Assembly: GCA_024641425.1 (NCBI GenBank)
Contig: JAHEDC010000007.1
Location: forward strand, 1-33,235
DNA: 33,235 bases
Direction of reading: 5' to 3'
Origin: Verrucomicrobiales bacterium
GTDB taxonomy: Bacteria; Verrucomicrobiota; Verrucomicrobiia; Verrucomicrobiales; DEV007
Shown here: positions 10,613 to 27,109 of the stretch, in pieces
Layout: each line of letters begins with the position of its first letter
Position numbering within the stretch: position 1 is the stretch's first letter
Notes under the pieces: model-generated
Database searches by the model: none
What the model saw: the letters and a program-made list of their open reading frames with translations, nothing else
Told to the model about the DNA's origin: nothing
Made by a program: the position numbers and the translations under genes

Positions 10613-12472
10613 CTATGCGACCGACGAGGAAGGCCGGGCCTCCGGTTCGCGCATCCTGATCGCGGCGAGCAGCATGACGAGCAATTGGCTGACAACGAAG
10701 CCGATGAGCCAGAGGTAAGCGGCATCGAGGAATCCGTAGGAGTGAAGACCAACGCCAAGCATGTTGGTGCCAAACCAGGACCAACTCGTAACGACGTTTC
10801 CGAAAACGGCCATCATCATGAGACCACGTTCCTTTATCATGCCCCCCCACCGGGCATGAAGGATGGTGGCATTCCAGAGGACGATAAGGACCGCCCCGTT
10901 TTCCTTCGGATCCCAACCCCAGAAACGGCCCCAGCTTTGATCGGCCCAGATCCCACCAAGAACGGTACCGACGAAACTGAAAAGGGTGGCAAAGCAAACA
11001 ATGCCATAAACCATTCCCCTGAGCGCTTTCCGGGTGTCGGGGGAAAGCTGGCCGAGGCTGCGGCCGATGATCGCGAAGATCGCGAGAATACCGGCAAGGA
11101 ACGTGGCGGAGTATCCCAGAGTGACGACGATGACATGGGTTGCGAGCCAGAAGTTCGAATCGAGAACGGCTCGCATCATCTCCAACGTATCCCCGTTGAG
11201 AGAGAGATGGTGCGCGATCACAAGAGTCGAGAAGCCGATGACTGCGGCGACGGCAGTCCCGAGCGCCTTCTTGTAGATCATCTCGAGAACGATGCTCAGG
11301 GTTATGGCTCCCCACCCGATGAAGACGGCGGAAGAATAGAGGTTCGTGACCGGCGGGCGGCCCTCAAGGAGCATTCGGGCGATGAGCCCCCCCGTATGGA
11401 GGAGGAAGCCGAGAAGGAGGATACGAAAGGCGGCCTTCGCGAGGGAATTGCCCCAACCCAGCCACGACAGGATCGCGGCGAGGAACGCGAGGACATAGAG
11501 CACCATGCACAGATAAAACGGAGCCAAGCGGTTGAAGTAGACCTCGCGTGCCGCTTTCCGTGCCTCGACGGGCCGTGCCCCGGCAACCCAATAGCGCATT
11601 TCAAGGACCGCCTGATTGAATTTTGCCACGCCGGCCTCCCCACCCTCCCCATAGCCGTCGGCGATACGCGCGTAATTGACGAGATAGGGATGGTATTCTC
11701 CGGTATCGATGGCAACGATCATCGATTCGCCGATCCGACGCCACTCGCTGTCGTCGCCAAGCGGAGGCAGCGGGATGAAGTATCCCGATTTCGGAAGCCT
11801 GAAGACGGGAGTCATCACGGCGGTCATGGCGTCGAGCACGGCCCCGTCGAATTCCTTTCCCTCGGCGCGCTTTTCCATTTCGGCACTGCCTTTCTCGGCG
11901 AGGTCGCGGAATTCCGCGAGGCGGGCCTCGTAGCTTCCGCTGCCGGGAAGGAAAAGTGATTGACGAAGATTCTCGTAGAGTTGCAACTCGCGTTGAAGTT
12001 TCATCAAGGCGCGTTCGTAGGCTTTCCACAACGGCTGCTCAATGGCCGCGATACGCGCTGCTTCGGTCTCGATCTTCTCCCGCGACACTTGGATTTCCGC
12101 ATAGCAGAAAAGCTTCCCGTCCTTCTCGCTCTTCCCGATTTCGCTCAGCACCTCACCGTGATGGATGACAAAGAGTTTCCGCACGTCGGCAGCATCGGGA
12201 TTGAAAAGTACCTCCAGCAGCCAGGGCATGGCGGCAAGGGTTTCCTCCCCTTTGGGGCGAAGTTCCTGTTTGCCCCTCAGAACGAGGAGCGCGTTTCGGG
12301 CCACGGAGCCAAGCGGCTGCACACGACCGTTGGCGAGCACCGGTACTTTGGCGAGTTCCCCGAAATGATACCCATCGCCCTGCCTTCCTGCCTGCATGGC
12401 AACCGAAACCAGCCAGAGAAGGCAAAGGGCGGGAAGAATTACCGGGAGCAGGTCTTTGATGCGCGCGCTCAT
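10613..12472 (-). CDS. ccsA: CcsA-type cytochrome c haem lyase, extended N-terminus
   Basis: A 619-residue System II cytochrome c maturation protein that presents haem for attachment to apocytochromes outside the membrane. The WWD domain reads WGRFWGWDPKENGA (about residues 514-527), and flanking helices hold conserved His in VIAHHLSLNGD and LHSYGF. About eight helices make up the C-terminal half. The N-terminal half has one helix then about 290 soluble residues containing VPVLANGRVQPLGSVARNALL. That segment is typical of PVC and Bacteroidota CcsA proteins and absent from short Bacillus or plastid CcsA. The start at 12472 gives an ATGA overlap with the resB stop and begins just before the first helix. 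Confidence 0.88.
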   Translation of the reverse strand: MSARIKDLLPVILPALCLLWLVSVAMQAGRQGDGYHFGELAKVPVLANGRVQPLGSVARNALLVLRGKQELRPKGEETLAAMPWLLEVLFNPDAADVRKLFVIHHGEVLSEIGKSEKDGKLFCYAEIQVSREKIETEAARIAAIEQPLWKAYERALMKLQRELQLYENLRQSLFLPGSGSYEARLAEFRDLAEKGSAEMEKRAEGKEFDGAVLDAMTAVMTPVFRLPKSGYFIPLPPLGDDSEWRRIGESMIVAIDTGEYHPYLVNYARIADGYGEGGEAGVAKFNQAVLEMRYWVAGARPVEARKAAREVYFNRLAPFYLCMVLYVLAFLAAILSWLGWGNSLAKAAFRILLLGFLLHTGGLIARMLLEGRPPVTNLYSSAVFIGWGAITLSIVLEMIYKKALGTAVAAVIGFSTLVIAHHLSLNGDTLEMMRAVLDSNFWLATHVIVVTLGYSATFLAGILAIFAIIGRSLGQLSPDTRKALRGMVYGIVCFATLFSFVGTVLGGIWADQSWGRFWGWDPKENGAVLIVLWNATILHARWGGMIKERGLMMMAVFGNVVTSWSWFGTNMLGVGLHSYGFLDAAYLWLIGFVVSQLLVMLLAAIRMREPEARPSSSVA

Positions 12473-13605
12473 TGATTCCGACGGGAGAGGAAGCGGCCGA
12501 GGTTCAAGAGAAAGGCGACGACCAGACCGAGGGTCACAAGCGCGCACGAAACGTAGGGTAGAATCCAGACCGGGTTCTTCACCACCTGGAGGATACTGGT
12601 CGTATCCGCGTTGTCGAAACTGGCCTGGTAAAAAGTAAGTCCGTCGTAGCGAAGCGGGTTGTTCATATAGATCACCACCTCCCGATCTTCGCCACTCTCT
12701 GGATTCTTCAATCGCACCTGACTGGAAAAATTCTTCGGTATTTCCGTACCCTCGTAGCGGTCGTGCTTGAAGTCCTTCAGCGTGATGGTGTAAGGCAGAT
12801 AGTCTCGACGCTCGCGAAGGAAGAGTTGGAAAGTCCGGTCGCCAACGGTTGCCTCCTGGGTGAGGGCGATGGCATTGGAAAGAAGGTAAATTCCCGCATT
12901 CTCCTTTGCATCCGGCACTACTAGCTCGACATAGACCGCCGGAGCGTCGCGACGGTTTGGCGCTGTCTCTCGAGGCTGCTCGATGGCCATGGTCTGCCGA
13001 CCGATTCCTCGGGTCGCAGGCGTCGGGCTGCCTTCGCGGGGCGGAAATGTCGCGTTTTGGAAATACTCGACGATCCGAAGTGAGAACGGCAATGAGCCTT
13101 CGGCGAAGACCGCGCCCTTCACGAGTCGACTCTGGGGAATGGCGACGACCCGCTCTTTCCCCTCCGCATTCGACTCGATGACGACGAGTTCCACTTCACG
13201 GGGCCGCGTAACGAAATTACTCGTCTGGCCTTCGTCGAGGCGCATTTGCGATTCCACAGTCATGATGCCGGTTAGGAGTTCGCCGACAAGGAGCAGCGCG
13301 ACGCCGGAGTGAATGAGGATCATTCCCAGTTTTCGGGCCTGCCACTTGAAACGCATGACGTGCGCGGCAAGCAGGTTGGCAAGAAGCAGTGTCCCCAAAA
13401 GCCATCCACCGGGAAGAGGAAAGCGCCATCCCCCCGGGGCCCCGAAGTCGACCCACGCGATCCACGCTCGAAAATAGCGACGCTGCACCTCATAGATCCC
13501 GAGATGGACCTGATCGAGCGTGGCGATGAAGATCAGGATCATGCTGGCCACAAGCAGCAAGACCGTGAGCCGTAGCGAGGTGAAGAACTTCAGAGGGGCG
13601 ATCAT
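12469..13605 (-). CDS. resB: ResB-like cytochrome c biogenesis protein
   Basis: A 378-residue integral membrane partner of CcsA in System II cytochrome c maturation. Helices are at about residues 13-33, 70-90 and 98-118, with a last one near the C-terminus (ILPYVSCALVTLGLVVAFLL). A large extracytoplasmic domain of about 230 residues lies between them. The SLRLTVLLLVASMILIFIAT opening and the NNPLRYDGLTFYQASFD segment before the last helix are typical of ResB. The start at 13605 overlaps the upstream lipoprotein stop as ATGA, and its own stop overlaps the ccsA start the same way. The three genes are therefore almost certainly translationally coupled. Confidence 0.88.
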   Translation of the reverse strand: MIAPLKFFTSLRLTVLLLVASMILIFIATLDQVHLGIYEVQRRYFRAWIAWVDFGAPGGWRFPLPGGWLLGTLLLANLLAAHVMRFKWQARKLGMILIHSGVALLLVGELLTGIMTVESQMRLDEGQTSNFVTRPREVELVVIESNAEGKERVVAIPQSRLVKGAVFAEGSLPFSLRIVEYFQNATFPPREGSPTPATRGIGRQTMAIEQPRETAPNRRDAPAVYVELVVPDAKENAGIYLLSNAIALTQEATVGDRTFQLFLRERRDYLPYTITLKDFKHDRYEGTEIPKNFSSQVRLKNPESGEDREVVIYMNNPLRYDGLTFYQASFDNADTTSILQVVKNPVWILPYVSCALVTLGLVVAFLLNLGRFLSRRNQ

Positions 13606-14660
13606 TTCGGGGCCGCGGTTTCCACAAAGCGAATGAATTTCTCCTTCTCCGCCGCCACCACGTCGAGATCCCCGGCCATCTTGAAGAACCAAGTGCGGGC
13701 TCCCACTTGGCCCATGGCTCCCAGGATGGCAGCCTTCCGCCCTTCTCCGAGAAGATCATCGGCACTCTCGAAATGAACCAGAGTAAGCGCCCCAAGTCCG
13801 GAATTGAGAGGCAAGGATTCGGCCTTCAGTTCCTGCTCGGTCAGGTCCCGCAGTTGCATCTGTGTCCGCCAAAGGTTCAAATTCGCTTCAAGGCCTCCGC
13901 CATCGTCCTTGAGCGAGACGACGGAAACGTCGGCCTCGTGCCCTCCGGCTCCCTTGACCCGGAAACTCGCCAGTCGCATGGAACTGCCCTGGGACTCTTC
14001 CCACCCGGCAGGAACATCCAGCTTTGGCGCGGCCACTTCGGGCAGCGCCGGAGGGGCCTCCTGTTCATGCGCCCCCGAATGATCGTGGGCTATCTCCACG
14101 GATTGAAGGAGCATCATGAAATTCTCCTTCTGCGCCGCAATCGCCGCCGAACTGCCGGTCATCTTGAAGAACCACATTTCGGCGGCGACTGGAAGCTGCG
14201 CCGCGAGTATGCCGCCAGCTTCCGCTCCGTCGAGGGCGAATACCTCGAATTCTCCCTGGCCATCCGAGACGGAAACCTTTTCGGGCGACAATGCTTCCTC
14301 GGTCGTAGGTCCCAGGTTCAACTGGCTCCGCCAGCGGTTGACGTTGGCAAGCGTCCCCCCGGCCGTGCCGCCGAGACGAATAACCGTGATCGCCGCCTCG
14401 GAACCATCGCCTCCGTCCGCCGTGTAATTGCCGAGCCGGGTTCCGTCGGGAGGAAGCTCTTTCCAGCTTTCCGGCTTCGCCCAGCGCACCATCGTCTCAT
14501 CAGCGGGGGACGATGTTCCACCTGACGGGACACTTTTTTCCTCACCCGTTCCCGCCGTGACGTGATAGACCCGGACTGGCTCCTCGCCGCAGGCCGCGAG
14601 CAACAGTGCGAATCCCGGAGCAAGCAGCTGCCGCCCCTGTATCACCCATGATCTAGGCAT
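13602..14660 (-). CDS. Lipoprotein with two tandem copies of one domain
   Basis: A 352-residue predicted lipoprotein. The lipobox is LLLAAC, with the lipidated Cys at residue 24 after a short hydrophobic stretch. The mature protein holds two copies of a domain of about 130 residues (about 58-183 and 215-350). Copy 1 has NVNRWRSQLNL and MWFFKMTGSSAAIAAQKENF; copy 2 has NLNLWRTQMQL and TWFFKMAGDLDVVAAEKEKF. A His-rich stretch (HDHSGAHEQ) links them. No named family is recognised. The gene overlaps the reductase stop by eight bases and the resB start by four, so it belongs to the cytochrome maturation operon. A role as chaperone or assembly factor for exported cytochromes is inferred from position only. 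Confidence 0.75.
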   Translation of the reverse strand: MPRSWVIQGRQLLAPGFALLLAACGEEPVRVYHVTAGTGEEKSVPSGGTSSPADETMVRWAKPESWKELPPDGTRLGNYTADGGDGSEAAITVIRLGGTAGGTLANVNRWRSQLNLGPTTEEALSPEKVSVSDGQGEFEVFALDGAEAGGILAAQLPVAAEMWFFKMTGSSAAIAAQKENFMMLLQSVEIAHDHSGAHEQEAPPALPEVAAPKLDVPAGWEESQGSSMRLASFRVKGAGGHEADVSVVSLKDDGGGLEANLNLWRTQMQLRDLTEQELKAESLPLNSGLGALTLVHFESADDLLGEGRKAAILGAMGQVGARTWFFKMAGDLDVVAAEKEKFIRFVETAAPK

Positions 14661-15888
14661 CGAGGACAATGTTCCCGTCAGGCACGCAAATGCAGGGTAG
14701 GCAGCAGCCCTTCTCAAGTTTGTCGAAAGTAGGCTTTGTCGAATACTTTACTTTCCCTTCGACCAGAGCCGTCATGCAGGTTCCACATTTTCCTAGCCAA
14801 CAGGCGGTTGGGATCTTGACTCCCTCGGATTCGGCGAACTTCACGAGGTTCGCGATCTCACCGTCGATGCCCACCTTCTTGCCTGTCCGCTTGAAATCAA
14901 CAGACGCCGAAACCTTGACCGACTTCGTGACTTGCATGAAGGCCTCGTCGTGGACCCGGGATTCCGGAACCCCCCATTCGGCCAAACCGTCGCGGACACC
15001 GTTCATCATCGGTGGTGGGCCACAGGTGTAAAAGTCGAAGTTGGCGGACGGGAGGAGCCTTTGGAAAAGATCCGCGCCAACCCGCCCCGCATAGTCATAG
15101 TCTTCCCCGAGCCGGTCGCTGCTGTCGGGGTCACTGTAGCACACGACGAAATGGACATTCGGAATCGCCGCCGCACGCCAGGCACGAATCTGCTCCTTCA
15201 GCATATTCTCGCTGCCGTTCCGCACCCCGTAGAAAAACCAAACCTCGCGCCGGGCCTTTTCCTCGATGATGGCGTTCAGCATACTCAACACAGGAGTCAC
15301 GCCCACTCCCGCACCCGAAAGGACGAGACCTCCGCTATCATGTGGATTGATGGCGAATTCGCCAGAGGGAGCTCTCACGTCGAGGATGTCCCCCACATTC
15401 ACCGAGTCGTGGAAATGTCCCGATACCTTGCCGGGCGGCAGTCCAGCGGGCTCGCGCGGAGCGAGCACTCGCTTGATGCTCACCCGGTAATGGTCAGGGC
15501 GGTGGCAGTCCGAAAGGCTGTAGCACCGAACAATCTCCTTACCGTCGAGATCAAGACGGAAGGTGAGGAATTGGCCAGGCTGAAACGAAGGCAAAGGAAC
15601 CTTTCCGTCGTTGGGAACAAGATAAAACGAACAAATACCCCCCGGTTCCGGAGTTTTCCGGTCGACCCGGAACTTGCGGATTCCATTCCATGCCACCGGA
15701 AGCGATTGTTGCCGCTCCCGGACTCCTCGCAGGGTTTGGAGTTTCTCCTCAAGAAGACGGAGTCGAGCCGCTGCGGTCTTTCCAGTCAGGGAGACAAGGC
15801 GACAATACTGCGCGAGCATGAGCAGCATCACGAGAGTCGCTCCACCGAGGAGGACAAGACCAAGAGTCTGAAGGATATTGGCGAGCAT
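14653..15888 (-). CDS. Membrane-anchored NADH reductase with C-terminal 2Fe-2S domain
   Basis: A 411-residue flavoprotein. Residues 5-27 are a membrane helix, and a short coiled coil follows (LRLLEEKLQTLRGVRERQQ). The FAD-binding motif is RCYSLSD (121-127), the pyridine-nucleotide site is SGAGVGVTPVLSM, and the CGPPPMMNGV signature is typical of ferredoxin-NADP reductase-like enzymes. A plant-type 2Fe-2S ferredoxin domain ends the protein, with C363-x4-C368-x2-C371-x27-C399. The likely reaction is transfer of electrons from NAD(P)H through FAD and 2Fe-2S to a partner. NqrF also has helix, ferredoxin and reductase domains, but its ferredoxin comes first, so this is not NqrF. It lies between the outer-membrane barrel gene and the cytochrome maturation genes. 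Confidence 0.85.
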   Translation of the reverse strand: MLANILQTLGLVLLGGATLVMLLMLAQYCRLVSLTGKTAAARLRLLEEKLQTLRGVRERQQSLPVAWNGIRKFRVDRKTPEPGGICSFYLVPNDGKVPLPSFQPGQFLTFRLDLDGKEIVRCYSLSDCHRPDHYRVSIKRVLAPREPAGLPPGKVSGHFHDSVNVGDILDVRAPSGEFAINPHDSGGLVLSGAGVGVTPVLSMLNAIIEEKARREVWFFYGVRNGSENMLKEQIRAWRAAAIPNVHFVVCYSDPDSSDRLGEDYDYAGRVGADLFQRLLPSANFDFYTCGPPPMMNGVRDGLAEWGVPESRVHDEAFMQVTKSVKVSASVDFKRTGKKVGIDGEIANLVKFAESEGVKIPTACWLGKCGTCMTALVEGKVKYSTKPTFDKLEKGCCLPCICVPDGNIVLDA

Positions 15889-15924: not shown

Positions 15925-17448
15925 CTAGAATTTGATGCGCATTTCGCACCGGGCGCCGTGTCCAACTTCCCCATCATCGTAACCCGCGAAAAATCCATCA
16001 AGAACAAAAATTGCATGCTGATCAAGGGCCTGCTGATACCGCAGTCCGATGCCGCCGCCAGAGCGGGCATTCCCGTCGGTCGAGATCCGCCCCCCAATCT
16101 CACCCACCAGTTGTTTGGTGTTCAACTTGTCGAAGAAGTGCTGGTATCCCAGAGCTGACCCCACCGCATCATTGCTTCGATTCCCAAGCGCGGAGCCATA
16201 GCGGCCAAGCCCGACGGCCTCGAAAAGAATGCCTGTCTGGCCAAGCGGCCCACCTGTGGCCGAGTCCCGCGCAGCGGATGTGTAGTCGTCGATCCCCCAG
16301 AAAGTATTGAGGTAGGCGATGTCATCGTTGTAGTCCATCGTTCGGGAGATCTGCGCGAAAAGGAGCGTTCCGGTGTCAACCGCCGGCGTCTGTTCGTCAA
16401 GTGCCCAGGAGAAATTGGCCCTGAGCGTGGAATTCAATTTGCCCCACCGGCGGGTCTGGCCAAACCCCGCAAAGAAGCCATCGCCCCCTGTTTCATCGGA
16501 CGCGGAAACGTATGCCACATCGGCTTCGTAGGTCGAGCGATCATAATCAAACGCCGAAAACAGACCGAAAAGGTTGGCGCTGTCGTCAACAAGGTTGTCC
16601 CCGCGATTCACTTCGTTGAAACCCCAGAGAGCCGTGATCCGGGACGCGGAGGAACCAAAGAGAAAGAGGGAGGATCGGGTGATTCCGATGGCATCGATGG
16701 AATCGTTAATCATCATGCCGTCCTGAAAGGAAAGTGGCATGCGACCAACCGCGAATCCATAGTCGAGACTTTTTGAGTCGCTGAGATCGAGGTTCGGAAA
16801 AAGTTCCCCGAAATCTCCCTCAAAATAGAGACTCCGAATGTTAGCGTTGAAATTGTCCTGCCATCCGTCCTCGCCATCGCCGTCAAAGCGATATCCCGAA
16901 AAGTTGCCGCGCCGGTCCAACGGCCGAATACCCACGAGAATTCGCTCGGTCGGGGTGAGATAAAGGTTGGCAAAGAGATCGAGCCGGTTGGCCCAGTCAA
17001 ACGATTCCGCCAAGCCGTTGTCATAACTCTGGATAGCGGTCCGGTACTCCCCGTAGATGACGAGAACCGGCTGCCAGACCGCTCCGGTGGGAATCTCAAA
17101 ACCAGGATTGATCTCCCCTTGGCCCAAAAACGGGTTCCGACCGAAAATCGTCTTCCGTTGGGGTACTTCCTTGCTGAAGTCTCCGGTCTCGTTCCTCTCC
17201 TTGATGAGCATCTCCCGTTCGCGATTGACTGGAAACAACAAATCCTCAATCACTTCTGTCGTCGGCTTGGGACGCTCGAGAAAGTCATCCCCAATCGTGT
17301 CCCACGGCACCGCTTCATCACTGAGGCCCAAGGCATCCTCATGAGGGGAGGAATCCCCACCATGCGCTTCCTCCGCACCCCGGGAAAGGGTGGTCAGGAA
17401 AGGGAAAAGGCACCAACATGTAAGCGATAGGAATCCCGGATTTTTCAT
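15925..17448 (-). CDS. Predicted outer-membrane beta-barrel (porin-like)
   Basis: A 507-residue protein with a Sec signal (MKNPGFLSLTCWCLFPFLTT, cleavage near SRGAEE). A charged region of about 80 residues follows, then an alternating polar/apolar pattern typical of transmembrane strands, e.g. WANRLDLFANLYLTPTERIL and YGFAVGRMPLSFQDGMMIND. It ends in Phe after ARCEMRIKF, the usual outer-membrane barrel insertion signal. The family is not named here. It lies between the pentahaem cytochrome and the NADH reductase, so it could be the barrel of a porin-cytochrome conduit, or a nutrient porin. The barrel part is large enough for about 16-20 strands; that number is an estimate. Confidence 0.72.
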   Translation of the reverse strand: MKNPGFLSLTCWCLFPFLTTLSRGAEEAHGGDSSPHEDALGLSDEAVPWDTIGDDFLERPKPTTEVIEDLLFPVNREREMLIKERNETGDFSKEVPQRKTIFGRNPFLGQGEINPGFEIPTGAVWQPVLVIYGEYRTAIQSYDNGLAESFDWANRLDLFANLYLTPTERILVGIRPLDRRGNFSGYRFDGDGEDGWQDNFNANIRSLYFEGDFGELFPNLDLSDSKSLDYGFAVGRMPLSFQDGMMINDSIDAIGITRSSLFLFGSSASRITALWGFNEVNRGDNLVDDSANLFGLFSAFDYDRSTYEADVAYVSASDETGGDGFFAGFGQTRRWGKLNSTLRANFSWALDEQTPAVDTGTLLFAQISRTMDYNDDIAYLNTFWGIDDYTSAARDSATGGPLGQTGILFEAVGLGRYGSALGNRSNDAVGSALGYQHFFDKLNTKQLVGEIGGRISTDGNARSGGGIGLRYQQALDQHAIFVLDGFFAGYDDGEVGHGARCEMRIKF

Positions 17449-17540: not shown

Positions 17541-20387
17541 TTATCCTTTGCCAGCCTCCGGCGTAGCTGAAACGGCCGTCACCGGCGGAGTTACGGGATC
17601 TATCGGCGAGGAATCATCACCCTTCTCGGGAGCATCGGCAGGGGGAGTATCTCCCTCCTCTTTCGTGTCGCCTTCAGGAGGCGTTGGTGGGTCACCGAAA
17701 CTCTCTTCTACCGGTTCGTCACCGAAACTCTCCTCTCCTTCCACCTCCATAAGGATGTCCTCAGGGGCAAGGCTATCCGGTGAAAGCTCGATGATGCCCC
17801 CACCGCCCATTTCGGCCTGTTTCTCTTCGAATTTCGGATCGTAGGGGAAGGGAATCTCTCCCGCCGCCATGATCTCAGACTCCGTCGGGCTAAAATCCCA
17901 TTCGTTACGGCTTCCGTCGATGACGAATTTCTTTTCCCAGAGAACCAACGCGCCGCCCTTCCGATCCTCGTCCCGCTGGGACGAGGACACTCGATGGCCG
18001 AACGCCACCCGTTTTGCCACTTCCTTCGGCGACAGATTATAATCAAATCCGACAATACTAATGGTCTTAATCAGATTGATCGGGACCATCTGCGAAACGA
18101 ATTTTGCCTCCACGGTGTAGGGACGGGCTCCCGTAAGCGCCTCCGCAGGCACATTATAATCGGCCCAGCGCGAATCATTCGGAGCGAGAACCCTCGCCTG
18201 TTTCCGGGCCGCCCCGGGACGCGCCACGAGAATACCCGGCCGGGTATCAGGACGGATGTAAGGAAGCGGATCCAGCGAGTGGTTCACTGCGAGAACCTGC
18301 TCGCGTTCGCCACCGCGAAGGTTCCTTGTGATGAACTTCGACTGCAGGTTGAACAAGTCCTTGTCCTCTTTCCACTTCAAATCATAAGGTAACCGCTTCA
18401 GTCCTGCGGCATCCTTCCAGGCCGTCTGCTGAATATACTGAGACGACTTGTCCGCGTCATGGTGGACGTAGGACGAATGAAGATCGCGGACATCTCCGTT
18501 CGGATCGCGATCGCCAGACTGATAAATAACCCTTCCCTTCGCGTCCTTCACCTTCACGTCGAGATAGATGAGGCGCTCCGCGTCAAACCCGGTCGGCACC
18601 CCATGCCCGTCGGTTCCGTTCTTCACCTGGATCCGGAATGCAAGCCCCTTCGAGTCATCGCGCGTAACCTCCGTTTTGCCGAGTTGGAAACCACGCCGCA
18701 GAACCTGATGACGCTCGACACTGATTTGATTTAACAATCGGAACTGATCATTGAGCAGCAGACGAAAGTCCGAGCGATTCTGACGATCATCCCAGGGCCA
18801 TGGCAAGGCCATCTCGGCCTTCTCGTCCTCGCGGACTTTCTTCTCAAAGGCGCTCTCGGCATCGCCCCAGCCGTCTTCCCATTTGAAATCAAGCATGTGC
18901 GCCAGACCCGCGCGTTCGGCGACCTCCGTCTTCCCATCCTTCTCCTCCTGCCGCTGCCACTCCCAAAGCTTATCGCGCAAGGCCTTCGAATGGGGAAACA
19001 TCCCCGGATGCACAATCGAGTAATCCGGCCCCGCGAACATGTGATTCGTGCGCTTCCGGGGAGGGGTCGTCGTACCATACCCTGGATCGCCTTCCTTCAC
19101 CCAAACGCCGCCGCCAATCCGGGCGGCGGGCCCCTGCGCGAAATTATCCTCACCGTCAAGCTTCTTGCCGGGAATCTTGCCCATATGGCAGTCCTGACAG
19201 GTCTCGCCGTCCTTTGCTGCGGGCGAGTTCTTGAATTGGGTAAAGGCCTCCTCCAAACGGAAGCCGTTCAGCAAATTCACATCATGGCATGTCCCACAAA
19301 ATGCCGATGTGGAGATCGGATCGAATTTCACCACGTCGCCATGCACCTTCATCTGACCATCGTCCTCTTCGGAAGACTTGAGGTTCGAGACCTTGCCCAG
19401 CATTTCCTTGAGAATCGCGTTGCCTTTTGGCCCGTAGACCGGTTGGTACATGTCGCCTTCCAGCACTGCGGTCCGTCCGCTGACTTTCCCGTAATTGCGA
19501 TCCACCCGATGGCAGACGACACAAGTGATCCCTTCGAGGGAGGCCGGGTGCCGCTTTAAGTTGCTTGTAAAGATTGGCTCCTCCCTCTGCATCCCGATCT
19601 GCGTGTGACAGCGAATGCAGAAGTCCCCATTCGTGCCGGACGTCAATTTGAAGAGTGCCGCCTGGAAGGCGTTGAAGACCGGACTCATCTGCGCATAGGC
19701 ATGGGCGGACACCGACCACTCGCGGTAGTGATCCGGGTGACATTGGGCGCAAGTCGCGGCCGAGGGAAATCGTTTCTCGCTCTCCAGAAGATCAAGGAAG
19801 CGGGCATGTGCCTCCGCCGCATTTTTGAATGTCACCTCGGTACTGACATCCACATCATCGGCACCGTCTTCGATGTGGTCACTCGTTCCGGGCGGGAAGA
19901 GGTCGGAAGCGCCCCCTCCGGAAAAGTCGATCTCTCCCCCTTCACTGCCACCGCCTGAAAAGTCCTCTTCGCCCCCGCCACCTCCAAAATCCTCCGCTTC
20001 CTCACCGCCACCGAAACTCTCTTCTTCACCGACCTCACCTGCGGCCGCCTCTCCAATTCCCTCTTCAATCATCGCCTTCTCTTTTGACTCTTCAGCGGCG
20101 TCGATGCCACCATCGGCTTCGACAGGGGCGTCAATGCCACCATCGGCGTCGATCACGACGGCACCCTTGATCTCGGCGGGCGGCGCGGGAGCCTCCAGGA
20201 CATTCGTCGTATTGCTGGCATCCCCTTCGTCCTCCGCCGAGGCAGTGAGCGCCCAGAGGACTGAAAGACTTCCCGCCCCGACGAGGACAACGGCAAGGGA
20301 TCGCCCCATCCGCGCCCTCTGCGAAATCGAAAGTCGACCTGCGGCGCGACGGGCACTCCTCGTTAGACCAGTGAGGATCGTGTTCAT
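17541..20387 (-). CDS. Pentahaem c-type cytochrome with EESFG acidic tails
   Basis: A 948-residue exported protein with five CxxCH haem motifs: CAQCH 213, CIRCH 257, CVVCH 289, CGTCH 364 and CQDCH 397. The spacing and phrases such as HYREWSVSAHAYAQMSP resemble the cytochrome c554 superfamily. A hydrophobic helix at about residues 30-48 is a signal peptide or anchor. Between it and the first haem is a low-complexity acidic/Gly region with two EADGGIDA-like units, one EESFG (122-126) and related AEDFGGG, EEDFSGGG and EIDFSGGG units. After the last haem come about 480 haem-free residues, then two EESFGD units (885 and 894) and a Pro/Glu-rich tail. The Met at 20387 was chosen; 20465 would place a strong inverted repeat inside the gene, and 20309 is also possible. 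Confidence 0.82.
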   Translation of the reverse strand: MNTILTGLTRSARRAAGRLSISQRARMGRSLAVVLVGAGSLSVLWALTASAEDEGDASNTTNVLEAPAPPAEIKGAVVIDADGGIDAPVEADGGIDAAEESKEKAMIEEGIGEAAAGEVGEEESFGGGEEAEDFGGGGGEEDFSGGGSEGGEIDFSGGGASDLFPPGTSDHIEDGADDVDVSTEVTFKNAAEAHARFLDLLESEKRFPSAATCAQCHPDHYREWSVSAHAYAQMSPVFNAFQAALFKLTSGTNGDFCIRCHTQIGMQREEPIFTSNLKRHPASLEGITCVVCHRVDRNYGKVSGRTAVLEGDMYQPVYGPKGNAILKEMLGKVSNLKSSEEDDGQMKVHGDVVKFDPISTSAFCGTCHDVNLLNGFRLEEAFTQFKNSPAAKDGETCQDCHMGKIPGKKLDGEDNFAQGPAARIGGGVWVKEGDPGYGTTTPPRKRTNHMFAGPDYSIVHPGMFPHSKALRDKLWEWQRQEEKDGKTEVAERAGLAHMLDFKWEDGWGDAESAFEKKVREDEKAEMALPWPWDDRQNRSDFRLLLNDQFRLLNQISVERHQVLRRGFQLGKTEVTRDDSKGLAFRIQVKNGTDGHGVPTGFDAERLIYLDVKVKDAKGRVIYQSGDRDPNGDVRDLHSSYVHHDADKSSQYIQQTAWKDAAGLKRLPYDLKWKEDKDLFNLQSKFITRNLRGGEREQVLAVNHSLDPLPYIRPDTRPGILVARPGAARKQARVLAPNDSRWADYNVPAEALTGARPYTVEAKFVSQMVPINLIKTISIVGFDYNLSPKEVAKRVAFGHRVSSSQRDEDRKGGALVLWEKKFVIDGSRNEWDFSPTESEIMAAGEIPFPYDPKFEEKQAEMGGGGIIELSPDSLAPEDILMEVEGEESFGDEPVEESFGDPPTPPEGDTKEEGDTPPADAPEKGDDSSPIDPVTPPVTAVSATPEAGKG
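17691..17735 (-). repeat. Paired repeat encoding EESFGD near the pentahaem C-terminus
   Basis: Two 18-base units (17691-17708 and 17718-17735) differ at one base and have a 27-base period. On the minus strand each encodes EESFGD. They match in protein sequence the EESFG units near the N-terminus of the same protein and those in the decahaem cytochrome. Confidence 0.75.
19910..20024 (-). repeat. Degenerate acidic/Gly repeat before the pentahaem domain
   Basis: The coding strand specifies EESFGGG, AEDFGGGG, EEDFSGGG and EIDFSGGG in succession, about residues 122-157. The core is two acidic residues (or acidic plus apolar), then Phe and Gly. It joins the membrane-proximal region to the haem domain and is probably disordered. 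Confidence 0.7.
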
Positions 20388-20631
20388 AATGGTGGCGATA
20401 TTTGTTTTGATTCCTGTTGGTGCAATGTGCGGAGAGGCGAATTTAGGCTTGCCTCTCCATTGCAAATCCGCTTATTTTCGGAACAATTCCCATTAATTCC
20501 TAGCGGTCCGGCGGAATCTCGGCAACAAGATTTTTCGAAATAGTTAACATTTCTTACCTTTTTCCCTCGTCATTGTCCTGTTGCTGCGTTTCACTGAATC
20601 TAAATTTGAATCCAGAAATCTAAAAGGCACC
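20388..20631. promoter_or_regulatory. Divergent intergenic region of the cytochrome locus
   Basis: This 244-base region separates the pentahaem (minus) and tetrahaem (plus) genes and is visibly richer in A and T than its neighbours, as expected for two back-to-back promoters. It contains the inverted repeat at 20431-20458. It also has a near-palindrome, GAAAT-A-GTTAAC-ATTTC, at 20537-20553. No convincing pair of -35 and -10 boxes stands out for either gene. No FNR-type TTGAT-N4-ATCAA site was seen. Confidence 0.55.
20431..20458. promoter_or_regulatory. Perfect 8-bp inverted repeat upstream of the pentahaem gene
   Basis: GGAGAGGC (20431-20438) and GCCTCTCC (20451-20458) are perfect reverse complements separated by 12 bases. 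The repeat sits 44-71 bases before the pentahaem start codon. It could be an operator half-site pair, with centres two helical turns apart, or an RNA hairpin in the 5' leader. No T-run follows, so it is not a standard terminator. Confidence 0.5.
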
Positions 20632-21669
20632 ATGAAAAATCGCGTCACCATTTCACTCTTCGCGACGGGACTGTTCCTCGTCGTGGCAGGACAGTCGAAC
20701 GGTCAGGCCATCTCCACATTGCACCCGGAGAACGTCATCGGCTCCGAGCGTTGTGAGGAGTGCCACAAGGAAGAGGTCCTCGCGTGGAAGGCTTCGACCC
20801 ACTCCCGAAGCAACAATGTCCATCGTGACGCCAAGACAAAGGAACGGGCCGCCGAGATCGCCACGAAAATGGGGATCAAGAACGTCAATGACATCCCCGC
20901 CCATCCACTTTGCACCGAGTGCCACTTCACCCGTCAGAAAACAACCGTTTTGAAGGTCATCAGCGGGGTCAGTTGCGAGTCGTGCCACGGAGGAGCAAAG
21001 AACTACCGCGATGTCCATGGCAAAAAGGATGAAATTCCGGATCGCGCCGAGCGCCAGAAGCGTTCCAAGGCAGCTGGGATGCTCTACCCGCACGAAACCT
21101 ACAAGGTGGCGGAAAACTGCTACAATTGCCACATCGTCCGCGATGAGAAGCTCGTGAATGTGGGGGGACACAAGGCTCGCAGCGACAGTTTCAATCTGGT
21201 GGACTGGACGGCGGGCGAACTGCGTCACAATTTCTATGACACAAGTTACGAACGCCACGAGAAGGAGAATCTGGATACGCGCATCGAGCGCAAGCGTCTT
21301 TTCTTCACGGTCGGCATGACTCTCGATCTCGAGTATAGCCTGCGCGGGCTCGCCTCGGGAGTTCAGAAAGGGAGCAACTTCCCCTTCCGCACCACGATGG
21401 GTAAGCGCGCCTACGATATCATCAATAAGGAACTGCCCGCCGTTATCGCGAAATTGGGGGGTGAAGGCGCTGCGCCGAAGGAACTCGTCGAAATCCAGAA
21501 GATCGGCAAGGGCACGAAACTCACTGGAGATGCCGCCGACATCGTAAAGGCGGCGGATGCGATCAACGCCCAGATCGAGGCCTTTAGCGCAAGCCAGGAT
21601 GGAACCGGTCTCGGGGCCATCGACGCATTCCTTCCGAAGAACCCGAAGGGCACTCCTTACAAGCCGTAG
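20632..21669 (+). CDS. Tetrahaem cytochrome c554-like protein
   Basis: A 345-residue periplasmic cytochrome with a Sec signal (MKNRVTISLFATGLFLVVAG, cleavage near NGQ-AIS). There are four CxxCH motifs: CEECH 41, CTECH 94, CESCH 115 and CYNCH 163. The arrangement and the phrases VLAWKASTHSRSNN and GVSCESCHGGAKNY fit the cytochrome c554 family (Cytochrome_C554 type), in which extra His supply distal ligands. The C-terminal 180 residues are haem-free and helical. The start at 20632 begins the signal peptide; an upstream in-frame Met at 20581 would add 17 residues with no signal character. It is the first gene of the plus-strand cluster and probably a soluble electron carrier for the membrane proteins that follow. 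Confidence 0.87.
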   Translation: MKNRVTISLFATGLFLVVAGQSNGQAISTLHPENVIGSERCEECHKEEVLAWKASTHSRSNNVHRDAKTKERAAEIATKMGIKNVNDIPAHPLCTECHFTRQKTTVLKVISGVSCESCHGGAKNYRDVHGKKDEIPDRAERQKRSKAAGMLYPHETYKVAENCYNCHIVRDEKLVNVGGHKARSDSFNLVDWTAGELRHNFYDTSYERHEKENLDTRIERKRLFFTVGMTLDLEYSLRGLASGVQKGSNFPFRTTMGKRAYDIINKELPAVIAKLGGEGAAPKELVEIQKIGKGTKLTGDAADIVKAADAINAQIEAFSASQDGTGLGAIDAFLPKNPKGTPYKP

Positions 21670-21777: not shown

Positions 21778-23580
21778 ATGGAGGGTACGACCTTACCAGA
21801 GTCAGAACGTCCCCAGCGTTGGGATGCCCCCTTCGCACCGGATATGGGTGCGGGAGATGTGGCCCGATTGCTGAGGGTAGAGCCCTTTGCGTCCATTGAT
21901 CAGAGTCGTTTTCCCCGGCATCTCGCCCTCGAAGGCATCCTTCGCAACGACACGCGGGTGCTGAATCTCGCTGCCGGTGAGATCATCGTTCGGGAAGGAG
22001 ACTACGGAAATTCCGCCTTTCTCATTCTCAAGGGCGGCGCGAAGGTCTTCCAGCGCAGTCTTCCGACGGAAATGCTCGGTCGTGGCACGCAGGGGAAAAA
22101 GAGTATCCTCAAGACGATCGCGCGTGCCTTCAGGAACTCGCGCACGCCAGAAGTGCGTGTCCATCATACGCAGCGGAGCTTCAAGACGAGCGAAAAAACG
22201 GGAGTCCTTATCCAGGACTTTCCGAGGGTCATCCGCGAACACGCTTCAGAGGCCATCCAGTGCGGCGAACTCTTCGGCGAAATTGCCGCTCTCGGTAGGA
22301 CCCCTCGGGTGGCAACGATCGTGGCTTCGGAGGACGACACCGAGGTGCTCGAACTTCGCTGGCAAGGCTTGCGGGACATCATGAATTTCGCTCCTGCCTT
22401 CAATGCGTATATTGAAAGCCGGTTCCGGAAATACGGACTCATATCCCTTCTCCGCGCCCTCGACATCATGGATCGCCTTCCTCCCCAGGCCGCCGAGGAA
22501 GTCGCCACCCACACCGTTTTCGAACGCTACGGCCGTTTTGACTGGTACGGTTCCTACCAACAGATGCTCAAAAGCCGATCCGCCACCGAGCGCCTTGGCA
22601 AAGAACCCCTGATCCTCCAGGAAGGCGACTACCTCAACGGCCTCATCATCGTGCGGGGAGGCTTCGTCCGGGTAAGTAGACACTACAACCACGGCGAGCA
22701 GACCATTTCCTATTTGGGGAAGGGCCAGTACTTTGGACTCCGCGAAATCTACCACAACCATCTCCATCCCGACAGACCGGCTCCCGCTCAACTTTCCCTG
22801 CGGGGCGTCGGCTACGTCGATATTCTGGTCATTCCCACCAACCTCGTCGAGGAGCACATCATCCCCCATCTCACGCAGACGGAAATTCGCGATCTGACGG
22901 CCCACCCCCTCTCCACGATCGCCGGCTCGGAATTGTTGAGTTCAGCTCCCGTTTCCGCCGAGAGCGAGGCTACGGACGCGAGGAAGATCCTCGGGGCGAA
23001 CATGATTGAGTTCTTCATGGACCGGAGGGTGATCAACGGCGGCGCCACCATGCTGATCGATCTTGATCGATGCACACGTTGCGACGATTGCGTAAGGGCG
23101 TGCGCCTCGACCCACGATGGCAATCCCCGCTTCATCCGCCAAGGCCCCAACCAGCAGGGCATCCAGGTCACACAGGCTTGCATGCATTGCCACGATCCCA
23201 TCTGCATGATCCCCTGCCCCACCGGTGCGATCCACCGTCGGGAGGGTGGCGAGGTCGTCATCAACGACGATACCTGCATCGGGTGCGCGAATTGCGCCGA
23301 AAACTGCCCTTACCATAACATTCAGATGGTCGAGATCCGCTCCGAGAGCGGCGAGATCCAATTTCCCGTCAGCCTTGACGCCGAGGGCAATATCGTCTTC
23401 GGCAAGGACAAGAAGATGATACCCCGTACCGACCAGGGCCCCGTCCGCAGGGCCACCAAATGCGATCTCTGCTACGAGCACGTCGGCGGTCCCGCCTGCG
23501 CGCGGGCTTGTCCCCACGACGCGCTTCTTCGCGTCGACATGCAGGACACGCGGAAGGTCGCCGAATGGCTTTCCCGATGA
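21778..23580 (+). CDS. Twin cNMP-binding domains fused to a four-cluster ferredoxin
   Basis: A 600-residue cytoplasmic protein; no signal is present. Two cyclic-nucleotide-binding folds come first (about 55-220 and 235-400). Domain 1 keeps the phosphate-binding cassette, FGE168-IAALGRTPR177-VATIVA, with both the Glu and Arg that bind the ligand, but carries an insertion of about 70 residues before it. Domain 2 (GKGQYFGLREIYHNH) is degenerate. From residue 432 there is an NrfC/PsrB-like ferredoxin with four Cys groups: CTRCDDCVRAC, CMHCHDPICMIPC, CIGCANCAENC and CDLCYEH...CARAC. It should carry electrons through four [4Fe-4S] clusters, possibly gated by a cyclic nucleotide. No molybdopterin subunit is nearby. 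Its stop overlaps the next start (ATGA). Confidence 0.9.
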   Translation: MEGTTLPESERPQRWDAPFAPDMGAGDVARLLRVEPFASIDQSRFPRHLALEGILRNDTRVLNLAAGEIIVREGDYGNSAFLILKGGAKVFQRSLPTEMLGRGTQGKKSILKTIARAFRNSRTPEVRVHHTQRSFKTSEKTGVLIQDFPRVIREHASEAIQCGELFGEIAALGRTPRVATIVASEDDTEVLELRWQGLRDIMNFAPAFNAYIESRFRKYGLISLLRALDIMDRLPPQAAEEVATHTVFERYGRFDWYGSYQQMLKSRSATERLGKEPLILQEGDYLNGLIIVRGGFVRVSRHYNHGEQTISYLGKGQYFGLREIYHNHLHPDRPAPAQLSLRGVGYVDILVIPTNLVEEHIIPHLTQTEIRDLTAHPLSTIAGSELLSSAPVSAESEATDARKILGANMIEFFMDRRVINGGATMLIDLDRCTRCDDCVRACASTHDGNPRFIRQGPNQQGIQVTQACMHCHDPICMIPCPTGAIHRREGGEVVINDDTCIGCANCAENCPYHNIQMVEIRSESGEIQFPVSLDAEGNIVFGKDKKMIPRTDQGPVRRATKCDLCYEHVGGPACARACPHDALLRVDMQDTRKVAEWLSR

Positions 23581-24398
23581 ATTTCTTCAACAAAAGACGC
23601 CTCCGCAATTCGGCGGTCCTCGCAGGTGTGATCACCCTCAGCCTGGGCGGCTTTGCGATCGCCCGCACTGCCTTGCGCCCGACGGCCATTCACACCGGCC
23701 TGGTTCTTATCGCGCTCCTCTTCGGACTCTCCTTTCTCAACGGACGGAAAAAGCTTCCTTTTCTTCCGCTTTGGAAGGCGTCCACCTGGGTGCAGATCCA
23801 TATCTATGCCGGAATTTTCTCGGTGGTTCTATTCTTCGTCCACGTCGGCTTCCGCCTTCCGAATGGCACCCTCGAGATTTTTCTCAGCATTCTCTTTGCC
23901 ATTGTCGCCTTGAGCGGATTCTTCGGGCTCTTCATTTCCCGGTGGCTCCCCCCACGCGTTACGAGTTCCGGTGAATCCCTCGTCTACGAACGGATTCCGG
24001 CCCACCGGCAACAACTGCGGAAAGAAGTCGAGAAACTCGTTGTCGACGCGGAACGCGAATCGGGTTCATCAGCGATCGGGGATTTCTATCTCGATGTTCT
24101 TGCTCCCTATTTTCAGTATGATCACGGCGTCGCCATCCTTCTGGGGGACCCCCGGCGCTTCGAGCACCGCATCACCCGCCGCATCGACGAATTCTCGCGC
24201 TATCTGGATGCGGGAGAACTCGAAACCATCGGAGAAATCCGTGAACTGATCGCCCGGAAAAGGAACCTCGACTTTCAGCACGCCGCCCAACGGATCCTGA
24301 AGCTCTGGCTTTTCATCCACATTCCTTTTACCTATAGTCTGCTTCTTGTCGCCATCGTCCACGGGTGGATCGCCCTTTCCTACGCCGGCGCCCTATGA
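23577..24398 (+). CDS. Dihaem cytochrome b-like membrane protein
   Basis: A 273-residue protein with about five helices: 11-29, 36-54, 71-92, 98-117 and 240-265. Two helices each carry His 14 residues apart, H75/H89 and H248/H262, the H-x13-H pattern by which cytochrome b of bc1-type complexes holds two haems across the membrane. A soluble segment of about 120 residues lies between helices 4 and 5. The start ATG at 23577 overlaps the preceding TGA by four bases, so it should be made together with the Fe-S protein and probably takes electrons from it, or gives them to it. NrfD/PsrC is ruled out by size and the His pattern. No family name is claimed. Confidence 0.78.
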   Translation: MNFFNKRRLRNSAVLAGVITLSLGGFAIARTALRPTAIHTGLVLIALLFGLSFLNGRKKLPFLPLWKASTWVQIHIYAGIFSVVLFFVHVGFRLPNGTLEIFLSILFAIVALSGFFGLFISRWLPPRVTSSGESLVYERIPAHRQQLRKEVEKLVVDAERESGSSAIGDFYLDVLAPYFQYDHGVAILLGDPRRFEHRITRRIDEFSRYLDAGELETIGEIRELIARKRNLDFQHAAQRILKLWLFIHIPFTYSLLLVAIVHGWIALSYAGAL

Positions 24399-24424: not shown

Positions 24425-27109
24425 ATGCCCGAGCAATTCCAGGACTTCACCCATCGCGGATCCGTCTACGACCGCCCGAACCGCAAATGGATCTGCGGGG
24501 GCGCTTGCGAGGGCTGCCCCTGTCTTCTTGGCCCTTCCGCGAAGGGAAAATGCCAGGCCGGTGCGAAATTCGATGGCCGGATCTCCGGCGAGTGCCTTCC
24601 CGTGAAGCATGGCGATCTCTGGGTCTGCAACCGGGTGGACACCCATGGCGGAATTCCCTGCAACGAGGGACCGCTTCCGGACGGATCCTGCTGCCGCGCG
24701 GTCGCGAAATGCCAGCCCCGTCCCACGCTCCGACGGCTCCGTGGCCAATGTGTTCTCCTCGCCTGCCTGGCCACACTTGGATTCTTGCTTTGCCTTTTCA
24801 GCTCCGAATCGGCCAACAATGACGGCCCCCCCCTCGCTCTCGACGCGGGTCCCCTCTCGTTCTCCCACGCCTTTCTCGAGAAAGACTGCAAGAGCTGCCA
24901 TAGCGCTCCGGAGTTGGCGCCGGCCCGCCTCGCCGGTTTCAATCCCCATGGATTTGACCAACGCGCGATGAGCGACGGTCGACTTTGCATGAAATGCCAC
25001 ACCGAAATCGGGGAAAACCGCGGCGAGTTTGCCTTCCATCCCCACACCGCATCCCCTGCCACCCTTCCCAAACCTTCCAGTCTTCTGATTCAGCGGAATC
25101 CGAGCCTCAGGCTTGTTGGCGCCGCCGCGATCGCGACCGGTCTGGACGGCGACCACATCAGTTGCACCACCTGCCACGTCGAGCATCGCGGGGAGATGTT
25201 CGATATCAAGGCGCTTTCCAACGAACAATGTCAGATCTGCCACCAAAGCCGGTTCGGGAATTTCGAAAAAGGACACCCCGAGTTCGACCGGATGAACTAT
25301 CCGCATAACCGGCGCACCCGAATCTTCTTCGACCACTATTCGCACTACGAAAAGCATTTTCCGGAGAAGCAGAAAACCGAGCCGGACGCCGTTCCCATCG
25401 GCTTCGACGAAGCGCGCTCCCATGCGGAGAGCCAGTCCTGTACAACCTGCCACAGCCCCAGTACGGATTCAGGACAAATGAAAGTCAATGCCTTCGAGGA
25501 ATCCTGCGCGAAGTGCCACACGAAGAACGTCTTCTCCTCCGAAGCTTTTCCGGTGATCGCCATTCCGCGGGTGGACATCGATGCGATCAATGCCTTCGTG
25601 GAATTTCTTGGAACGAAGGAGAAACGGGAAGAGGAACAGGACGCCGGCGCCTGGTTCGTGGACTACCAGATCCAGGACGGATTCCCTTGGCCGATGCTCC
25701 TCTTCCTCGACAAGGAAACCCGGGAGAAATGGGATCTTTTGCTCAAGGAAGGCGTCGATATCAGCGACCTTTCCTCGGCCAGCCAGGACCAACTCCAGAC
25801 TGCCACGGACGTGGTTTTCGGCTTCAAGCAGCTCTTCGTTGATGTTTCGGAGGGCAGCGCGGAAGGAAAAAGGGGGAGCGCCGAACTTGCGCGGCGCCTG
25901 GAAGCCAATGGCTATCCAGCCCCCGCCGCCATGCTCAATGGTTTCCCGCAGGACGCCTTCCTCCGCTTCCGCGAGAAGATCTCGCCCTCGAAGACCGCAT
26001 TCCTCGCGAACTCGGCCAGCGAGGGGAAGCTCAGTCTCCTCGAGGAGAAACTGAAGGCCATCACCGATGCTTCCGACGACGAAGTGAAGAGGCAACTCGC
26101 GAGAGACCTCGCCGTTCCCTACGCATGGCGGGAACTGGTGAGGGAAATGAAGGATTACACCGAGAAAAAAACCTATCCAATCAAGAAGAAACCGGAACGC
26201 GCGCCCCGCGCAAAGCCTCCCGAAAATCCCGCGGGTTCCACAGCGCCCGGCGAGGAATCCTTCGGCGAGGAATCCTTTGGGGATCCGGCTCCCGCCACCG
26301 AAGAATCCTTTGGGGATCCGGCTCCCGCCGGGGAGGAATCGTTTGGCGACGACGCCGGAGAGGAATCGTTTGGAGGAGGGGTGGATGACGATGCCCTGGC
26401 CTTCGGTTCCGGCACCGATGCTCCGGCAGAAGTGGAAGAACCCGTCGATCTGCAGGATCCCAACGCGACCGCGTGGAGCGAGAATATTGGCGGCTGGTCC
26501 GAAGATCAGTTTATGATTTCCTACAAATCGACCGGACATTCCGATCCCTTGATGAAGGCCTGGATTGAAGCCCTTCTCGGGCGGATCGACGATGACGCTG
26601 CTCTTTCGGCGCTCCGCGAGAGTCTCAGGTTTTCCCAAGGGGTCGAGTCGCGGGCCGCCGGGAACTGCCTGATGTGCCACTCCATCGATGAGAAGCGCGA
26701 TAGCACAGGCAAACTGACGGGGGCGGTCGTAAACTGGCACTCGCAGGCGACCACTCCATTCAAGATGCCCGAGCGCGCGCTCACGCATTTCAATCACAGC
26801 GCCCACCTCCTCCTCGCCGACTGCCGTCAGTGCCACGTCACTGAAACCGACGAGAACGGCCGGGATCGCTACAAGGAGTCCTTCCCTTCCACCGAAAGCT
26901 GGAATCTCGGCAGCCGTTGGTTCGAAAAAGCAAATCCTCGACTTTTCCACAGTAACTTCCGGCAGCTCGACAAGGGCTCCTGCTCCACCTGCCACAATGG
27001 TTCGACTGCGGATGACAGTTGCCTCCACTGCCACCAGTATCATTTCCCGGTGAGCGACGCCGAAGCGCCGATTATCGATCGCCTCCTGAATCGGGAACAG
27101 ACCCCCTAG
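24425..27109 (+). CDS. Membrane-anchored decahaem cytochrome with Cys-rich N-terminus
   Basis: An 894-residue protein. Residues 20-100 hold eleven Cys (24, 28, 31, 33, 43, 57, 68, 79, 89, 90, 96) and no CxxCH, suggesting a metal or Fe-S site. RRLRGQ then leads into one membrane helix (about 109-126), which puts the Cys-rich part in the cytoplasm and the rest outside. Six haem motifs follow: CKSCH 155, CMKCH 188, CTTCH 247, CQICH 269, CTTCH 339 and CAKCH 361. A haem-free region (about 370-740) ends in five EESFG units (610-650). Four more haems come next: CLMCH 748, CRQCH 800, CSTCH 853 and CLHCH 866. The order of the first haems recalls cytochrome c3/c7 proteins. It lies 26 bases after the cytochrome b gene and is the last gene of the unit. 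Confidence 0.9.
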   Translation: MPEQFQDFTHRGSVYDRPNRKWICGGACEGCPCLLGPSAKGKCQAGAKFDGRISGECLPVKHGDLWVCNRVDTHGGIPCNEGPLPDGSCCRAVAKCQPRPTLRRLRGQCVLLACLATLGFLLCLFSSESANNDGPPLALDAGPLSFSHAFLEKDCKSCHSAPELAPARLAGFNPHGFDQRAMSDGRLCMKCHTEIGENRGEFAFHPHTASPATLPKPSSLLIQRNPSLRLVGAAAIATGLDGDHISCTTCHVEHRGEMFDIKALSNEQCQICHQSRFGNFEKGHPEFDRMNYPHNRRTRIFFDHYSHYEKHFPEKQKTEPDAVPIGFDEARSHAESQSCTTCHSPSTDSGQMKVNAFEESCAKCHTKNVFSSEAFPVIAIPRVDIDAINAFVEFLGTKEKREEEQDAGAWFVDYQIQDGFPWPMLLFLDKETREKWDLLLKEGVDISDLSSASQDQLQTATDVVFGFKQLFVDVSEGSAEGKRGSAELARRLEANGYPAPAAMLNGFPQDAFLRFREKISPSKTAFLANSASEGKLSLLEEKLKAITDASDDEVKRQLARDLAVPYAWRELVREMKDYTEKKTYPIKKKPERAPRAKPPENPAGSTAPGEESFGEESFGDPAPATEESFGDPAPAGEESFGDDAGEESFGGGVDDDALAFGSGTDAPAEVEEPVDLQDPNATAWSENIGGWSEDQFMISYKSTGHSDPLMKAWIEALLGRIDDDAALSALRESLRFSQGVESRAAGNCLMCHSIDEKRDSTGKLTGAVVNWHSQATTPFKMPERALTHFNHSAHLLLADCRQCHVTETDENGRDRYKESFPSTESWNLGSRWFEKANPRLFHSNFRQLDKGSCSTCHNGSTADDSCLHCHQYHFPVSDAEAPIIDRLLNREQTP
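26252..26374 (+). repeat. EESFG-encoding tandem repeat in the decahaem gene
   Basis: Five EESFG units begin at residues 610, 615, 626, 637 and 646. At the DNA level, 27 bases at 26270-26296 recur exactly at 26303-26329, a 33-base period that encodes EESFGDPAPA plus one variable residue. The exact DNA identity points to recent duplication, so copy number probably varies between strains. Confidence 0.85.

Follow-up and report, generated by a model that had tools for sequence, protein, structure and literature searches.

What does a short peptide, EESFG, do in two different cytochromes that are encoded on opposite strands of one locus? The question is raised by the window, i.e. the whole stretch of 33,235 nucleotides of a Verrucomicrobiales bacterium that was analysed, in which an earlier note had recorded five copies of EESFG in a decahaem cytochrome and three in a pentahaem one, the latter lying at both ends of the protein together with degenerate EDFGGG-like copies. 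Exact search and translation bear out these counts and placements, as well as the opposite strands, and the haem counts are confirmed by 10 and 5 CxxCH motifs, respectively (Table 1). The same note had found no obvious overall similarity between the proteins. They are indeed different cytochromes, but both give weak matches to the Cytochrome_C7 and Mtrc-MtrF_II-IV Pfam models, so that their cores are not wholly unrelated.

Table 1. Features of the cluster and copies of the motif, in window positions.
Feature	Positions	Strand	Details
FAD/NAD(P)/2Fe-2S reductase of the cluster	14653..15888	-	PF00175, PF00970, PF00111
Predicted outer-membrane barrel, 507 aa (putative porin of PCC4)	15925..17448	-	no motif; adjoins pentahaem gene
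Pentahaem cytochrome P0002, 974-aa reading frame	17541..20465	-	5 CxxCH
Disordered C-terminal tail, pentahaem	17544..17798	-	AlphaFold2 pLDDT mostly 30-41, model residues 864-948
EESFG unit, pentahaem C-terminal tail	17694-17708	-	exact search
EESFG unit, pentahaem C-terminal tail	17721-17735	-	exact search
Disordered N-terminal tail, mature pentahaem	19836..20243	-	AlphaFold2 pLDDT about 30-38, model residues 49-184
Degenerate units EDFGGG, EDFSGGG, IDFSGGG after the N-terminal EESFG, pentahaem	19911..20009	-	translation
EESFG unit, pentahaem N-terminal tail	20010-20024	-	exact search
Tetrahaem cytochrome c554-like protein	20581..21669	+	4 CxxCH; no motif
Two cyclic-nucleotide-binding-type plus 4Fe-4S domains, Fe-S partner of inner-membrane protein	21778..23580	+	PF00027, PF13247, others
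Inner-membrane protein, two WX3HX13H motifs plus SGXXG	23568..24398	+	WVQIHIYAGIFSVVLFFVH, WLFIHIPFTYSLLLVAIVH, SGFFG
Decahaem cytochrome P0001, 894 aa	24425..27109	+	10 CxxCH
Helical insert (H domain) of decahaem, just before motif linker	25550..26023	+	HMM
EESFG units in decahaem linker, between haems 6 and 7	26252..26374	+	five copies, exact search
EESFG unit 1, decahaem	26252-26266	+	exact search
EESFG unit 2, decahaem	26267-26281	+	exact search
EESFG unit 3, decahaem	26300-26314	+	exact search
EESFG unit 4, decahaem	26333-26347	+	exact search
EESFG unit 5, decahaem	26360-26374	+	exact search

The gene cluster and its relation to PCC4

Judged by their sequences, the genes around the two cytochromes belong to a PCC4-type cluster, which is a known kind, while a published description of the motif was not found in the open literature searched. 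PCC4 is a putative porin-cytochrome conduit, linked to Fe(II) oxidisers, for which electron transfer across the envelope is the proposed function in the available part of its description (He, Barco, Emerson and Roden, 2017; PMC5566968). As characterised there, PCC4 subgroup II has a porin, for which the predicted barrel is the candidate in the window, and it has in common with the window multihaem cytochromes with 4, 5 and 10 haems; the 4, 5 and 10 CxxCH motifs found here make up the three-cytochrome set by which PCC4 is recognised. Also common to both are an inner-membrane protein with two WX3HX13H motifs and an SGXXG (all three present here), a pfam13247 Fe-S gene upstream of it (here PF13247, E 3.4e-10, in the gene directly before) and a flavin/2Fe-2S reductase, without an extracellular multihaem protein. 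By the published definition, as far as that part of the paper gives it, the decahaem protein is the 10-haem MHC of PCC4. The window differs from the cluster as described there in being split into two divergent arms, and in its host, Verrucomicrobiales being absent from the PCC4 hosts listed in the same part of the text. The tag and its disordered arrays likewise go unmentioned in it, repeats being discussed only for PCC3 (PMC5566968).

The same seven genes surround pentahaem homologues in Planctomycetota, Pseudomonadota, Nitrospinota, SAR324 and others, and the gene of the 507-aa barrel-like protein (recognised by eye) neighbours the pentahaem one at almost every locus. None of the remaining cluster proteins carries a repeated motif array. 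The MtrAB and PioAB conduits serve the same general task, in which a cytochrome associated with a barrel is supplied with electrons from the inner membrane and passes them across the outer one. Unlike theirs, the decahaem protein here appears to be membrane-anchored and is not of the MtrA/DmsE family, since TIGR03508 gives 19.7 bits for the decahaem and 28.1 bits for the pentahaem protein against a cut-off of 192.2, and the barrel lacks any Pfam or NCBIfam match. In the Fe-S protein, two cyclic-nucleotide-binding-type domains are fused ahead of the 4Fe-4S domains of this respiratory cluster, an arrangement which suggests ligand control of electron flow. The cluster is followed by ResB-like and CcsA-like genes resembling those of cytochrome c maturation (10613-13692, by eye), homologues of which also come after the cluster in locus L037.

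The two motif-bearing cytochromes

From its N-terminus onwards the decahaem protein consists of a Cys-rich region, one transmembrane helix near residues 105-128 (by eye), haems 1-6, a helical insert termed the H domain, the motif linker and haems 7-10. A Cys-rich N-terminus and a hydrophobic stretch followed by haems are most simply placed at the inner membrane, where the protein appears to be anchored. The Cys-rich domain (24425-24740; WICGGACEGCPCLLGP...GECLPV...CNRVDTHGG...DGSCC) is kept in relatives such as L037, L045 and G250 and may bind metal on the cytoplasmic side. An HMM of the H domain, built here, matches residues 376-533 of the window protein (E 2e-8) and is detected in 35 of the 49 decahaem proteins; the domain is tandemly duplicated in those of L045, L047, G005 and G174. 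In a fragment of the L095 decahaem protein, AlphaFold2 predicts a confident helical counterpart (pLDDT mostly above 90), for which no fold match was found in the PDB, followed by a disordered linker (pLDDT mostly under 50).

The pentahaem protein likely starts at the ATG at 20387, ahead of a signal-peptide-like helix. In the AlphaFold2 model of the window protein the core is well folded and the tails reach a pLDDT of only about 30-40. The fold of the core is related to that of the penta-haem cytochrome c552 of Thermochromatium tepidum (5ZE8; Foldseek E 5.8e-11, TM 0.66 by target; phmmer E 2.4e-9), but the match is limited to this core, the window protein being longer by its added disordered tails. 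The N-terminal tail also holds a 28-nt direct repeat (20093-20150, - strand) encoding IDADGGIDAPVEADGGIDA, a second low-complexity repeat in that region. In an acidobacterial locus (L051, 9614-13210), the pentahaem protein and the barrel form one continuous reading frame of 1199 aa, which supports a position of the pentahaem protein at the outer membrane. From these placements we infer that the carriers of the motif would sit at the two ends of the periplasmic gap.

Distribution of the motif

Within the window, an exact search of every frame finds no EESFG outside the decahaem and pentahaem proteins. Across the 6.5 Mb draft genome, a DNA pattern for EESFG followed by a sixth codon starting GR (GRN; Gly, Asp or Glu) gives 9 matches, 8 of which are the copies in these proteins while the ninth belongs to an antisense frame, and a control with the pattern reversed gives 0. 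A query with the 48-aa decahaem linker returned itself as the sole match (next E 0.16). Had the motif proved common in unrelated exported proteins, this would have spoken against the earlier note, but exact patterns run over the window genome and four relatives gave no such picture. The confinement of the arrays to two proteins of the cluster speaks for a role particular to these two. A looser pattern, GGNGARWSNTTYGGN, is too unspecific to be of use. Candidates for a third motif protein were rejected: single DDDFG matches in G005 and G028 fall mostly in antisense-looking or very short frames, with the exception of one membrane protein (L136), and the other match to a GESLLPE pattern in G031 is a short frame encoding a different peptide.

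In relatives the spelling varies by lineage (ESFG, DDFG, ESLLP, DDLLG/DDLFG, DLLSG) and is usually common to both proteins of a genome. EESFG is found in both proteins of the window, EESFG/DEFG in both of L037, GESFG in L036, ENFG/KENFG in G250, DDDFG in L045, G005 and G174, GESLL(P) in G031 and G034, DDLLG plus DDLFG in L049 and DLLSG in L063. Further spellings are DSLLSG and DILSG (L095) and ELFG/ALFG (L094). Cultured carriers of matched arrays include Ferruginivarius sediminum WD2A32 and Tistlia consotensis USBA 355. In G031 and G034 the decahaem array has moved to the C-terminus, and in L036 and G139 GESFG is set within Ala/Pro-rich spacers. In the pentahaem tree, which like the other trees is a quick build, the ESFG, DDFG and ESLLP groups each form one supported clade (96, 99 and 99), and at least 8 changes of the label 'no array' fall on starred branches. 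In addition, Hyphomicrobium-type loci (L096, L102, L103, L106, L109, L110, L112) carry one conserved [STN]D[DE]LLxPTxxELRxxK in the decahaem linker, of which the pentahaem protein has no copy; this is possibly the same tag in a form that occurs once.

Arrays are present in both proteins of 13 pairs, in the pentahaem protein only in 6, in the decahaem protein only in 0 and in neither in 30 (Fisher 1e-7, uncorrected for kinship), most relatives being draft MAGs in which neighbouring genes can be missing. No decahaem array occurs in the absence of a pentahaem one, and this dependence speaks for joint action of the two. The pairs with a pentahaem array and no significant decahaem array are L047, L052, L059, L070, L078 and L094. 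Among these, the decahaem proteins of L047, L052 and L078 hold repeats of a related but different spelling and that of L094 a single related unit, while neither related repeats nor units were found in those of L059 and L070; L059, L070 and L078 are counted among the mismatched pairs. Many PCC4 clusters, in Nitrospirota, Nitrospinota and Acidobacteriota, have neither array, and the tag is therefore optional.

A proposed docking tag and its alternatives

The explanation preferred here, to which about an even chance of being correct is given, is a co-evolving, multivalent docking tag that joins both cytochromes through a common putative periplasmic reader. EESFG would be one lineage's spelling of a short tag made up of one to three acidic or polar residues and then FG, LFG, LLG, LLS or LLP, several copies of which would lie in disordered parts of the pentahaem protein, with its outer-membrane barrel, and of the inner-membrane-anchored decahaem protein. 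Through weak, multivalent contacts these copies would engage a shared periplasmic reader in the decahaem-dependent part of the system, raising the local concentration of both cytochromes and of the electron carrier between them. As the preference of the reader drifts, both arrays would drift with it, and the spelling would usually match within a genome. The predicted disorder and the in-step change of spelling strengthen the earlier note's idea that the unit, placed in flexible linkers, serves docking or the binding of a partner, and the features expected of a docking motif are found, namely a short core in predicted disorder that is conserved above its surroundings and stays constant while the spacers change. 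Comparable arrangements exist elsewhere. In Paracoccus, cytochrome c1 has an acidic, disordered N-terminal domain that recruits a redox partner, although this domain is not known to hold a repeated hydrophobic core motif or to be shared with a second cytochrome. CsoS2 uses multivalent short docking motifs in a disordered protein as assembly tags, in this case for cytoplasmic carboxysome assembly and with no sequence link claimed.

An alternative is that the segments bind nothing and serve as long, soluble spacers prone to repeat expansion; their composition would follow the drift of the genome, giving rise to similar low-complexity words in both proteins. Repeat expansion is visible in the decahaem gene, where the EESFG units recur at 15, 33, 33 and 27 nt and the copies, at the 33-nt and 27-nt spacings, are partly tandem duplications, which means that the five copies are not five independent events. 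The spacers also drift by genome, being Ala/Pro-rich in both proteins of L036 and acidic in both of L037, and the segments are absent altogether from many clusters. Composition alone, however, predicts little of the agreement: in mature tails, own pairs have 39 hydrophobic-containing five-mers in common, compared with 1.6 (maximum 6) when sequences are shuffled at constant composition and 2.7 (maximum 20) when partners are permuted; these figures, like the array counts, are exploratory, as both the clades and the definition of a unit were chosen once the sequences had been viewed. The permutation p is 5e-5 among motif-bearing pairs only, and when each of nine clades is represented by one random pair, p has a median of 0.001 and is 0.003 at worst; a first version of the test on untrimmed tails agreed. 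Furthermore, units are several times as frequent in the tails as after shuffling of the residues of these tails (5 against 0.81 in the decahaem protein, p 0.0005; 3 against 0.61 in the pentahaem protein, p 0.02), the ESFG core persists as the spacer goes from acidic to near-neutral, and in the genomes scanned in full, repeated units are limited to these two proteins. Spacers of this sort are considered an unlikely explanation.

The arrays could also be homotypic stickers that bind each other as a zipper, by cation bridges or in a condensate, with no third reader. Identical spelling in both proteins is just what a like-binds-like contact would give, and the arrays are multivalent and predicted to be disordered; yet the pentahaem arrays of L059 and L070 face no hydrophobic array in the decahaem partner, and the strong acidity of most arrays, in either protein, should make them repel each other, which leaves direct contact distinctly improbable.

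Charge as such probably has little bearing on the motif. The charge-based tether put forward in the earlier note fits poorly with the Akkermansia-like genomes, where ESFG is retained in near-neutral linkers, and this survival argues that the hydrophobic core matters and not bulk charge. Charge was also rejected as a common factor with the tetrahaem protein, the Spearman correlation of its net charge with linker charge being -0.03 (p 0.83). Acidic tails that keep iron or manganese close to the cytochromes, or steer it there, would suit the many tails rich in Asp and Glu and the link of PCC4 to Fe(II) oxidisers, but the units are still present in near-neutral linkers, at a net charge in the decahaem protein of -4 (L036) and 0 (G139), and the conserved part is hydrophobic (FG, LL) and provides no ligand set, so that metal binding is very improbable.

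The least probable reading, scarcely to be credited, is that recombination placed a copy of one linker in the other gene, which would account for short identical words matched by lineage and for the high between-gene codon identity of several genomes (0.75-0.88), but which conflicts with the different place of the array in the decahaem proteins of G031 and G034 and with codons that differ sharply between the genes in the window (between-gene codon identity 0.52, within-gene 0.88) and in G031 (0.47 and 0.86), including two unlinked Ser codon boxes (AGT against TCC/TCG in the window). Recent copying is thus unlikely for the window, and matched spelling despite different codons, there and in G031, argues for selection on the peptide.

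Motif-less paralogues and candidate readers

A docking tag with a reader in the decahaem-dependent part of the system can be set beside natural controls. A second pentahaem paralogue in Verrucomicrobiales, which adjoins a tetrahaem gene and, in most loci, a barrel gene, has no motif tails, and the decahaem, Fe-S and inner-membrane genes are absent nearby; by its gene content this locus is a shorter relative of PCC4 without the inner-membrane arm. In 12 of 12 Verrucomicrobiales genomes with only the motif-less paralogue no decahaem protein was found anywhere, although these paralogues form one clade, so that few independent events are represented and the lack may be a single one. The motif-bearing genomes searched do have a decahaem protein, and in G174, which has both paralogues, the tag is confined to the copy next to the decahaem gene. 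Carriers of the motif-less form include G110, G128, G134, G148, G164, G169, G105, G213, G218 and others (L172-L184). The converse case, an untagged decahaem protein without a pentahaem partner, is merely hinted at by G012, in which the decahaem linker is short and untagged and no pentahaem gene was found downstream or in the genome (83% complete), the contig ending inside the decahaem gene.

The barrel, which the earlier note had offered as a possible partner, is an unlikely reader, as it is kept in most of these motif-less, decahaem-less loci. The first candidates would instead be the H domain of the decahaem protein and then the tetrahaem c554-like protein, a candidate shuttle or reader. Motif-bearing pairs number 18 of the 35 with a detected H domain and 1 of the 14 without, which makes the domain a candidate reader, with kinship as a confounder. 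In AlphaFold2, no docking of the L095 decahaem linker onto its own H domain was seen, with an alignment of only 28 rows, and the alignment for a joined decahaem-pentahaem chain mixed the haem domains of both proteins. Binding by the motif, a single reader, its identity and an effect on electron transfer are what we infer from these patterns.

Implications for partner choice in the periplasm

How electrons cross the periplasm, and how the right inner- and outer-membrane cytochromes pair, is an open question in extracellular electron transfer. A bolder and more tentative form of the docking-tag explanation, judged possible though on balance doubtful, is an address code, in which a lineage-specific tag on both cytochromes of the conduit, matched to one co-evolving reader, would decide the periplasmic wiring. 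Partner-finding would become testable with such a tag, which could be exchanged or removed while the haem domains stay intact, and the natural spellings (ESFG, DDFG, ESLLP, DDLLG) would supply ready cognate and non-cognate pairs.
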